From: a virus
IMG/VR virus record: IMGVR_UViG_3300033148_001585
Location: 1-36,128 of that record
Strand: one strand, 5' to 3'
Length of the DNA stretch: 36,128 nucleotides
Part shown: in pieces, positions 5,485 through 32,127 of the stretch
Position numbering within the stretch: the first letter of the stretch is position 1
How the letters are laid out: each line of letters starts with the position of its first letter
The notes under the pieces: generated by a model
Database searches by the model: none
What the model was told of the DNA's origin: nothing
Seen by the model: only the letters and a program-made list of their open reading frames with translations
Translations under genes and position numbers: made by a program

Positions 5485-6282
5485 TTAAAATAATGTTGGC
5501 GCTGTCTTTTCAAGTTCAGACTTGGCAAATCCAAACTCTTTAATATCTGCTTTAATTTGCTCAGTTTCTTCAATCCACTTTATAGACTCTTTAAAAAATG
5601 GCTTCTTAATTTCAAAACCATAACCTTTTCTGTCTGTCTCTATACATCCAATTAATGTACTACCACTACCAGCGCAAGGGTCTATAACTACATCGCCTTT
5701 GTCCGTGAATATCTCTATTAATTTTTTAATTAAATTAACAGGTTTTTGAGTTGGGTGTATTTTTTCTGTATTAGAGTCCTTCTCCCAATCAATACAATTC
5801 ATAATCATTTTTCGATTATTATTGAATTTAGGCAATTTGTCTCTGTAAAATAAAATAGCATATTCGCAATTACCTACGACTTTCATATTCGCTTTTAAAA
5901 CCTGAGCCGAGAAGTTTTTCCTAAATACTAAATTAATATATTTCCCTAATCCATATCTTTTACCTAATTCAATTAATTGAAATTGCTGCTCAAAAGAACA
6001 AAATACAATCATGCAAGGCGCTTGACCTTTTGCTTTAGGTTCTTTTTTCAACATCTTACTGCAAAAGTGCATAAATTCAGAAGGTCTAAAATCTTTATCA
6101 GTATCAAAAAATTCTTTACCAGCTAATTTACTTTCACCGTTTTTATTATCTCCATCGATATACCAACTAGGATTTGAAGCAAAAGCATTAATGCCAATAT
6201 TGTATGGTATATCTGCTATAATTAATTGTGCTTTCGGTATTTGATAAGATTTAAAATTCTGGAAATGGTCATTATATAACAT
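5485..6282 (-). CDS. DNA adenine/cytosine-N4 methyltransferase
   Basis: SAM-dependent amino-methyltransferase of the N6_N4 type. Motif IV is DIPY (residues 24-27) near the N-terminus, HPTQKP lies at 176-181, and the SAM-binding DPCAGSGSTLIGC at 201-213. That order (catalytic motif first) indicates a beta-class enzyme. DIPY instead of DPPY slightly favours an adenine target, but the substrate cannot be read from the sequence. There is no cognate endonuclease nearby, so it probably acts as an orphan methylase protecting phage DNA or regulating expression. It lies between the endolysin and a small HTH-like gene. Confidence 0.9.
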   Translation of the reverse strand: MLYNDHFQNFKSYQIPKAQLIIADIPYNIGINAFASNPSWYIDGDNKNGESKLAGKEFFDTDKDFRPSEFMHFCSKMLKKEPKAKGQAPCMIVFCSFEQQFQLIELGKRYGLGKYINLVFRKNFSAQVLKANMKVVGNCEYAILFYRDKLPKFNNNRKMIMNCIDWEKDSNTEKIHPTQKPVNLIKKLIEIFTDKGDVVIDPCAGSGSTLIGCIETDRKGYGFEIKKPFFKESIKWIEETEQIKADIKEFGFAKSELEKTAPTLF

Positions 6283-6288
6283 AGCTTT

Positions 6289-6513
6289 TTATTTATTTAG
6301 GTTTAGTTTTACAGGGCATCTCGAATACTCCACCCTCTTTAATTTAAAATACTTCTCATCACTCTTAACAATCCCCTTTACAGTCCCACGCGTCACGCCG
6401 AATTTAAGCGCCGTTTGTTCTAACGCTTGTAATTCCTTCACGTAATCGCAAATAAGCTCTGCATAGTGGCTTATTATACTTCTGTGGCGTTTCTTGGTGT
6501 CGGGTTGTTTCAT
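6289..6513 (-). CDS. Small helix-turn-helix protein, 74 aa
   Basis: Basic protein with a plausible helix-turn-helix in the middle (LEQTALKFGVTRGTVKGIVKS, about residues 31-51): an AL.FGV turn and a T..T..GIV recognition helix. The N-terminus is very basic (KKRHRSII). It could be a DNA-binding regulator or a small terminase-like recognition protein. It sits 6 nt from both neighbours, between two methyltransferase genes, so co-regulation with modification is possible. Confidence 0.65.
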   Translation of the reverse strand: MKQPDTKKRHRSIISHYAELICDYVKELQALEQTALKFGVTRGTVKGIVKSDEKYFKLKRVEYSRCPVKLNLNK

Positions 6514-6519
6514 GATTAT

Positions 6520-7188
6520 TTATTTAGTCCATTGTTCTGCCATTGCTTTTGCTATGCCTGTGTATGTTTTAGATCTTAGCTTTTCTCTTTCTGGTCCAGG
6601 ACTCGCATAGTGAATTTTAGCCCTATCTTTATAATCAAGCTTCATCATTTCGGTATAAACATTATTAGTTTCTTTAAGTTTTGGAAGTCCAAATATCCAC
6701 AAACAGGTAGCTTTCTTTTCTAAGTGCCCATGCTGATAGGGTTGAATTATCTGTGTGTATGGCTCTGTAATAATCTCTTTAGCATACTTATGCATGATTG
6801 GATTCTCTACATATCCTTTCCCTATCCTCTTTACTGCATCTATCATGTCATTAAAAAAACAAGCTCCTTTTACCATGTCACCATAACGCGCCCAATTCAT
6901 GTAAATTTGATACTTATCAGACCACACAAAGCCCTCTGTTGGTTTTTTCCTTACCAACCACCCAACGCCAGAGTTGGTTAGGTATTTACAAACAGGATGG
7001 GTACCTAGAAATTTAATATTCTTATTTTCATCCATAGATAATACTTTAAAAATATCATCTTTATAATGCCATTCTGGATGTCCTCCTGAACACTCTTTCA
7101 GATCGCAGCTAAAAAAATCATATCCTAACTCTCTAAACTCTTTCGTTACCGCCTGGCTTTCTTCGCATCCTATTATCCCTTCATTCAT
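6520..7188 (-). CDS. Phage cytosine-methyltransferase-like protein
   Basis: Matches a phage family commonly annotated as DNA (cytosine-5) methyltransferase-like. It opens GCEESQAVTKEFRELGYDFFSCDL, where the usual FxGxGG motif is replaced by GCEESQ. It then has CSGGHPEWHY, the PC-loop equivalent THPVCKYLT (residue Cys near 67), the ENV-like VENPIMHKY, and a C-terminal SKTYTGIAKAMAEQW. The normal catalytic PCQ is altered (HPVC), so catalytic competence is uncertain. At 222 aa it lacks a recognisable target-recognition domain. It is 7 nt from the upstream small-gene block. Confidence 0.7.
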   Translation of the reverse strand: MNEGIIGCEESQAVTKEFRELGYDFFSCDLKECSGGHPEWHYKDDIFKVLSMDENKNIKFLGTHPVCKYLTNSGVGWLVRKKPTEGFVWSDKYQIYMNWARYGDMVKGACFFNDMIDAVKRIGKGYVENPIMHKYAKEIITEPYTQIIQPYQHGHLEKKATCLWIFGLPKLKETNNVYTEMMKLDYKDRAKIHYASPGPEREKLRSKTYTGIAKAMAEQWTK

Positions 7189-31866: not shown

Positions 31867-31897
31867 AAAAAAACACCCAACCAATTAAGGTTGAGTG
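31867..31897 (-). terminator. Terminator after the tRNA-like gene
   Basis: 9-bp stem with one mismatch (CACCCAACC, 31874-31882, with GGTTGAGTG, 31889-31897), 6-nt loop, and seven T on the minus strand. It lies between the tRNA-like gene and the 184-aa gene. Confidence 0.75.
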
Positions 31898-31956
31898 CAG
31901 TTTGTCATACAGCGTGATAGTAATTATCTGTCATGTATCGCACTGGATTTACTTTG

Positions 31957-32075
31957 TGATCAAGACAGGATTCGAACCTGTAAAGTGGGCTATACCTCGA
32001 GATACCTTAGATTGTTGCTATCAATCACCCCCACACCAGCTACCTGTTTGCGTCTACCAATTCCGCCACTTGATC
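31957..32075 (-). tRNA. Atypical tRNA-Leu-like RNA, 119 nt
   Basis: On the minus strand a 7-bp acceptor (GATCAAG/CTTGATC), the Leu-type D-arm GCG-GAATTGGTAGA-CGC and a perfect T-arm ACAGG-TTCGAAT-CCTGT are present, with discriminator A and no encoded CCA. Between D- and T-arms are 68 nt, about 36 more than normal. The only good 5/7/5 stem-loop there is GATTG-ATAGCAA-CAATC, placing AGC at the anticodon, which does not agree with the Leu-type body. A 23-nt insert lies between the D-arm and this stem. It may be a degenerate tRNA, a tRNA mimic, or a tRNA with an insertion. Its own promoter starts at about the mature 5' end. Confidence 0.6.
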
Positions 32076-32079
32076 AATT

Positions 32080-32127
32080 CAAAGATAATATAATCCTTTT
32101 TAATAAACAACATGTTATAAAACATCA
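32080..32127 (-). promoter_or_regulatory. Promoter of the tRNA-like gene with palindrome S5
   Basis: Minus-strand TATCTTTG (32080-32087), a perfect TAnnTTTG, with its start 4 nt before the mature tRNA 5' end. Palindrome S5 (32110-32127, ACATGTTATAAAACATCA) lies 22 nt upstream and provides TTG near the -33 position. S5 overlaps the terminase stop codon. Confidence 0.55.

Follow-up and report, generated by a model that had tools for sequence, protein, structure and literature searches.

We describe here a 119-nt element on the minus strand of the viral record IMGVR_UViG_3300033148_001585 (positions 31957 to 32075 of the 36,128-nt stretch of DNA that was analyzed, hereafter the window). It probably belongs to a family of phage noncoding RNAs that are built on a tRNA scaffold, would mature like tRNAs, do not decode, and would display an exchangeable central domain. 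At the level of gene sequence, comparison of the family members shows that selection has preserved the acceptor, D- and T-arms and that the anticodon and variable arms have been swapped for an unrelated domain; that in well-sampled subfamilies this domain is a folded, often pseudoknotted module; and that such modules recur on the same or on other acceptor stems, between unrelated flanks. The architecture matches no known family, yet it is built on the tRNA fold, and the RNAs appear to form a hitherto undescribed class of noncoding RNAs in viruses: no description of a family with this architecture was found in Rfam or in open-access papers (preprints and subscription journals lay outside the search).

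The scaffold of the window element is that of a leucine tRNA. As a preliminary description of this DNA had proposed, tRNA-Leu-like acceptor, D- and T-arms stand intact around a 68-nt centre: the element scores 37.9 bits against the Rfam tRNA model (RF00005; cut-off 29), all seven acceptor pairs form, and the D-arm reads GCG-GAATTGGTAGA-CGC. With canonical tRNA-Leu (RF00005, class II) it shares, in addition to the acceptor and the T-arm, a 3-bp D-stem with G18G19, A73 and the mature ends; unlike it, the window RNA has neither anticodon arm nor variable arm and cannot decode. The D- and T-arms are 68 nt apart, versus roughly 30-36 nt in the ordinary leucine tRNAs of related phages, and the covariance model did not recover a normal tRNA fold, since it left the anticodon region wholly unmatched. 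ARAGORN called neither a tRNA nor a tmRNA at the element, and an Rfam scan of the whole window did not pick it up, presumably owing to speed filters. The centre, by itself, is not unusually stable compared with shuffled sequences: the whole RNA has a z of -0.33, and the GUGGG/CCCAC stem that abuts the T-arm a p of 0.11. The promoter that had been placed at the mature 5' end, and the terminator behind the element, were both confirmed: TTG-N20-TATCTTTG, which follows the Bacteroidetes promoter consensus, leaves 4 nt between the end of its -7 box and G1. A sigma-70 scan did not detect this promoter. With a promoter and a terminator of its own, the element is, on these predicted signals, a stand-alone noncoding RNA gene.

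Family members are taken here to have a paired acceptor, a D-arm, a T-arm and a centre, 37 nt long or longer, that is not an anticodon arm, as the window element does. The pattern GGCGGAATTGGTAGACGC-N50-80-GGTTCGAATCC, which spans the D-arm, a centre of 50-80 nt and the T-arm, matched at least 120 viral contigs, and an acceptor-anchored pattern matched at least 120 viral stretches, partly overlapping with the first set; a reversed-pattern control gave no matches. In cells the element is rare: among 84,980 prokaryotic genomes the first pattern had only 10 matches, five of them Sphingobacterium loci that sit amid phage proteins (such as terminase, portal, Erf, exonuclease VIII and anti-repressor). 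Sphingobacterium species in which an element is set among phage genes are S. griseoflavum, S. paludis, S. cellulitidis and S. alimentarium. A related pattern occurred in three of 395 Bacteroidota genomes, one of these three being the genome at the centre of the sample, which had been picked for carrying the element. The search patterns tilt the sample towards Leu-like members, and the abundance of the family is a lower bound; some members do have D-arms that are not Leu-like. A single phage record carries up to six elements.

Evidence for selection on the scaffold comes from properties that lie outside the search pattern, assessed on 105 distinct sequences. Acceptor pairing is complete (seven of seven) in 87 of these and reaches six of seven in 8, compared with 9% of random re-pairings that attain at least six; 44 distinct paired acceptors are represented, the acceptor AGTCAGG being common to many members. 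The outer T-stem is intact in 97 of the 105 sequences, A73 is present in 81 and C74 in 90. The acceptor and the T-stem are therefore selected as helices. Furthermore, a promoter box of the form TAnnTTTG lies 3-10 nt upstream of the mature 5' end in 17 cases across the family, where 1.35 are expected, and the window element is arranged likewise. The covariation of the scaffold in a large viral family, together with this promoter placement, lends support to two earlier suggestions, namely that the element is an expressed RNA and not a relic, and that it is a tRNA mimic.

The centres that stand in place of the anticodon arm are unrelated domains, mostly 40-110 nt long. In subfamily A1, 97% of the cells are paired, three pairs are changed on both sides, and shuffling attains the score in 4 of 500 cases; the corresponding values are 100%, four pairs and 3 of 500 for A2, and 98.9%, two pairs and 1 of 500 for A3. 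Subfamily A4 is the weakest, its score being reached by 53 of 500 shuffles. In A1 and A2 both helices are interleaved as an H-type pseudoknot. Across 181 non-redundant centres, the stem that abuts the T-arm (on its 3' strand side) is above the shuffle median in 78% and at p 0.05 in 17%. Homologous elements from different records have centres with a median identity of 86%, and in 94 of 106 pairs both 100-nt flanks are at random-level identity; one module was found on three different acceptors (L092, L057 and L220). In the case of the window, its centre is without relatives: a pattern run over viral contigs gave three chance matches, a pattern with the GATCAAG acceptor gave none, clustering by blastn left it a singleton, and whole elements had no full-length match in the phage collection. 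Covariation in relatives had been put forward as a check on the extra segment, and it is borne out by compensatory changes in the subfamilies and not for the window's own centre, whose fold is a prediction carried over from the family and unproven.

Several further architectural features were seen among the elements. In three of them (L005 from 1919, L007 from 5121 and, on the minus strand, L010 near 611) an extra hairpin domain sits between the T-arm and the acceptor 3' strand, so that the scaffold seems to take inserts at other sites too; these three have a common 3' motif, GTAA..hairpin..ATCTCTTG. The 76-nt insert that forms the centre in L017 holds a perfect T-arm-like hairpin, ACGAGGTTCGAGCCCTCGT, like a nested tRNA elbow. 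At L093:127-262, where ordinary tRNAs and odd ones form an array, there is a far larger tRNA-like RNA of about 136 nt, TAGTCAAG...CTTGACTA, with a second T-arm-like hairpin inside. A leader hairpin, TTGACAGC-stem-GGAAAGAC-stem-CAA, recurs 5' of elements (L093:280-310, L139, L148, L189, L034, L060 and L069). In 10 of 18 occurrences it lies 8-10 nt upstream of the mature 5' end, and it may signal processing or termination.

Seen in isolation, a single locus of this kind could be taken for an ordinary leftover, be it a decayed tRNA-Leu, an attachment site or a tRNA whose intron is unusual, and phages often carry tRNA remnants. The preliminary description had read an alanine anticodon, AGC, in a stem-loop of the centre. 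This stem-loop is present but at chance level, and it is not an anticodon arm: a hairpin of equal quality (5-bp stem, 7-nt loop, T33) occurs in 10% of the dinucleotide shuffles of the window centre, and the 262 family centres contain 22 anticodon-like hairpins against 21 in shuffles. The idea of an intron-like insert fares no better, because the family centres hide no anticodon arm and excision would therefore restore nothing. An attachment-site (attP) remnant would need an integrase and the 3' part of a tRNA alone; no tyrosine integrase (PF00589) was found in the window record, and the 5' half is there and pairs. Since, moreover, the acceptor covaries in a huge family and the centres are folded, we consider a leftover extremely improbable, and for the family as a whole this explanation is already contradicted.

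How might RNAs of this kind act? By analogy with tRNA biology, host tRNA enzymes would trim the 3' end and add CCA, and the RNA would be as stable as a tRNA. Recognition by bacterial LeuRS relies on A73 and the D/T-loop contacts and takes no account of the anticodon or the variable arm, and in E. coli both the anticodon arm and the variable arm are dispensable for leucylation (PMC9976931); the RNA may therefore be leucylated, and bound by EF-Tu. As it cannot decode, its function should sit in the centre, which would act in trans while held at the anticodon position. The modules are diverse, exchanged and present in several versions per phage, which suggests a contest with host factors, and the likeliest use, also the weakest step of the scheme, would be to act as a decoy for, or to inhibit, a host or defence protein that binds tRNA. 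Some observations count against the proposal that these are tRNA-scaffolded RNAs with a displayed, swappable domain. Parts of the D-arm and T-arm are fixed by the search patterns, and hence their conservation is partly selected for. The covariation is based on 3-10 sequences per subfamily, the crossing partner stem of the pseudoknot (Sa) shows only a mild enrichment over the whole family (10.5% of centres at p<=0.05), and the window centre itself has neither a relative nor a significant fold.

The same data allow other explanations. The charge itself might be the purpose, with a leucylated, anticodonless RNA diverting leucine, LeuRS or EF-Tu from host translation, or feeding leucyl-RNA to a non-ribosomal reaction, and the centre being non-decoding filler. 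The retention of the Leu-type D-arm, A73 and the D/T-loop contacts would fit, as would the leucylation requirements cited above; compensatory pairs and conserved module sequences, however, are unexpected for filler, and the D-arms that are not Leu-like do not agree with it either, which makes this explanation unlikely in our opinion. It is also conceivable that the elements are tRNA punctuation, serving as a cutting signal for RNase P and RNase Z between phage mRNAs. Most of them lie in intergenic gaps with same-strand genes (about 75% on either side), many between a stop codon and an ATG. Yet transcription of the window element would start at its mature 5' end and stop at a terminator of its own, and there is thus no upstream mRNA to cut; a bare signal, besides, needs no conserved swappable centres, and we hold punctuation to be quite unlikely. 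The sharp borders of homologous elements between unrelated flanks, and the predominance of a single acceptor sequence, would also be expected of a small transposon-like cassette whose terminal inverted repeats are the acceptor strands and whose likeness to tRNA is fortuitous. Against such a mobile element, no target-site duplications were found at the elements, and the 44 paired acceptors, A73, the D-arm and the T-loop fit tRNA biology and not transposon ends, so that it is very unlikely. A processing decoy, another option raised in the preliminary description, is possible.

Some known RNAs resemble these elements in part. The family shares with tmRNA (SsrA) a tRNA-like end domain and pseudoknots that lie between D-side and T-arm, and both are devoid of an anticodon. 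The window RNA differs in being Leu-type where tmRNA is Ala-type, in having a D-stem, and in being a 119-nt phage gene, and the family has many versions per genome; neither the Rfam covariance models nor ARAGORN gave a tmRNA match at the element. A tag peptide as in tmRNA is ruled out, because homologous centres differ by single-base indels and centre lengths spread over all three frames. Bacterial Y RNA of the YrlA type (RF02553), which acts with Ro60, is likewise a noncoding RNA that mimics tRNA, and some phages carry Ro60. No YrlA match at E<1 was obtained in the window element, and the YrlA matches in L093 and L099 straddle or overlap ordinary tRNAs. A link to Ro60 was rejected: TROVE is found in merely 4 of 50 carrier records, and the window element has other genes as neighbours. 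Ro60/TROVE-like proteins are encoded in the carrier phage records of L027, L013, L162 and L021 and are not a general trait of the family. A lead only is offered by RNAs C and D of phage T4 (species 1 and 2), which are stable non-tRNA RNAs of the phage tRNA region. Theta ribozymes are tRNA-associated, HDV-like ribozymes, and thus structured RNAs beside phage tRNAs; they are not described as replacing an anticodon arm (PMC10879173), and the window element matches no ribozyme family.

The host of the window phage is probably a member of the Bacteroidetes. The large terminase subunit (TerL) encoded upstream of the element (Table 1) has tblastn matches in Bacteroides, Flavobacterium, Cellulophaga and Polaribacter phages, and the record also contains portal, protease, tape measure, replication and methyltransferase genes. 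Two DNA methyltransferase genes lie near each other at 5485-7188 of the window, possibly as a shield against host restriction. The nearest phages by TerL (L122-L125, 69-70% identical) have no element after TerL, and the element was therefore gained or lost after divergence from them. Throughout the family no shared partner gene was found, the adjoining genes being ordinary, varied phage genes. Once, a gene for Thg1 (tRNA-His guanylyltransferase; neighbour protein, alignment A5), which bears on 5'-end handling, was seen next to an element.

Table 1. Features of the window element and its surroundings (window coordinates)
Feature	Position	Strand	Basis
tRNA-Leu-like RNA without anticodon arm	31957..32075	-	119 nt, mature-like ends G1 to A73; RF00005, 37.9 bits; sequence
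Acceptor 5' strand GATCAAG	32069..32075	-	7/7 pairs with 31964-31958
Leu-type D-arm, 3-bp stem GCG/CGC, G18G19	32050..32066	-	Rfam tRNA match and fold
Central domain, 68 nt, replacing anticodon and variable arms	31982..32049	-	left unmatched by tRNA model; no relative
GUGGG, predicted 5' strand of central stem	32030..32034	-	minimum free energy fold; unproven, p 0.11 versus shuffles
CCCAC, predicted 3' strand of central stem, 3 nt from T-stem	31985..31989	-	fold and shuffle test
Stem-loop GAUUG-AUAGCAA-CAAUC (AGC arm of the preliminary description)	32010..32026	-	in fold, at chance level
T-arm ACAGG-UUCGAAU-CCUGU	31965..31981	-	Rfam tRNA match and fold
Acceptor 3' strand CUUGAUC	31958..31964	-	followed by A73 (31957) and C74 (31956); sequence and Rfam tRNA
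-33 element TTG, Bacteroidetes-type promoter	32108..32110	-	sequence; N20 spacing to -7 box by script
-7 element TATCTTTG (TAnnTTTG)	32080..32087	-	sequence and script; puts transcription start at about the mature 5' end
Intrinsic terminator, hairpin with 10-bp stem and T7 run	31873..31898	-	terminator scan
Terminase large subunit, Bacteroidetes-phage type	32125..33540	-	upstream neighbour; phrog_979, tblastn

Among cultured phages, the Tenacibaculum phage pT24 may be a source of RNAs of this type, as it has two near-identical adjacent genes annotated as 'tRNA-Undet' and an odd 'tRNA-Pro' (L246:1290-1735).

Hundreds of uncultured phages carry RNAs of this kind with differing, exchangeable middle parts. 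The class has seemingly been overlooked, tRNA finders either skipping such genes or labelling them as 'undetermined' tRNAs, as in pT24. A broader picture, which we offer tentatively and with considerable doubt, is that Bacteroidetes phages keep a modular set of tRNA-shaped effector RNAs. A constant acceptor and elbow would be the handle by which these RNAs join the tRNA pool of the host, where they would be processed and CCA-tailed and might be leucylated and carried by EF-Tu; their exchangeable heads, which are pseudoknotted and replace the anticodon arm, would each be directed at one host or defence factor. The family would show the tRNA body to be a natural, general carrier of RNA domains, like the artificial tRNA scaffolds. 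The Sphingobacterium loci among phage genes, and phage pT24, provide material from culturable hosts with which an action of phages on the host tRNA system that goes beyond the supply of tRNAs may be studied.
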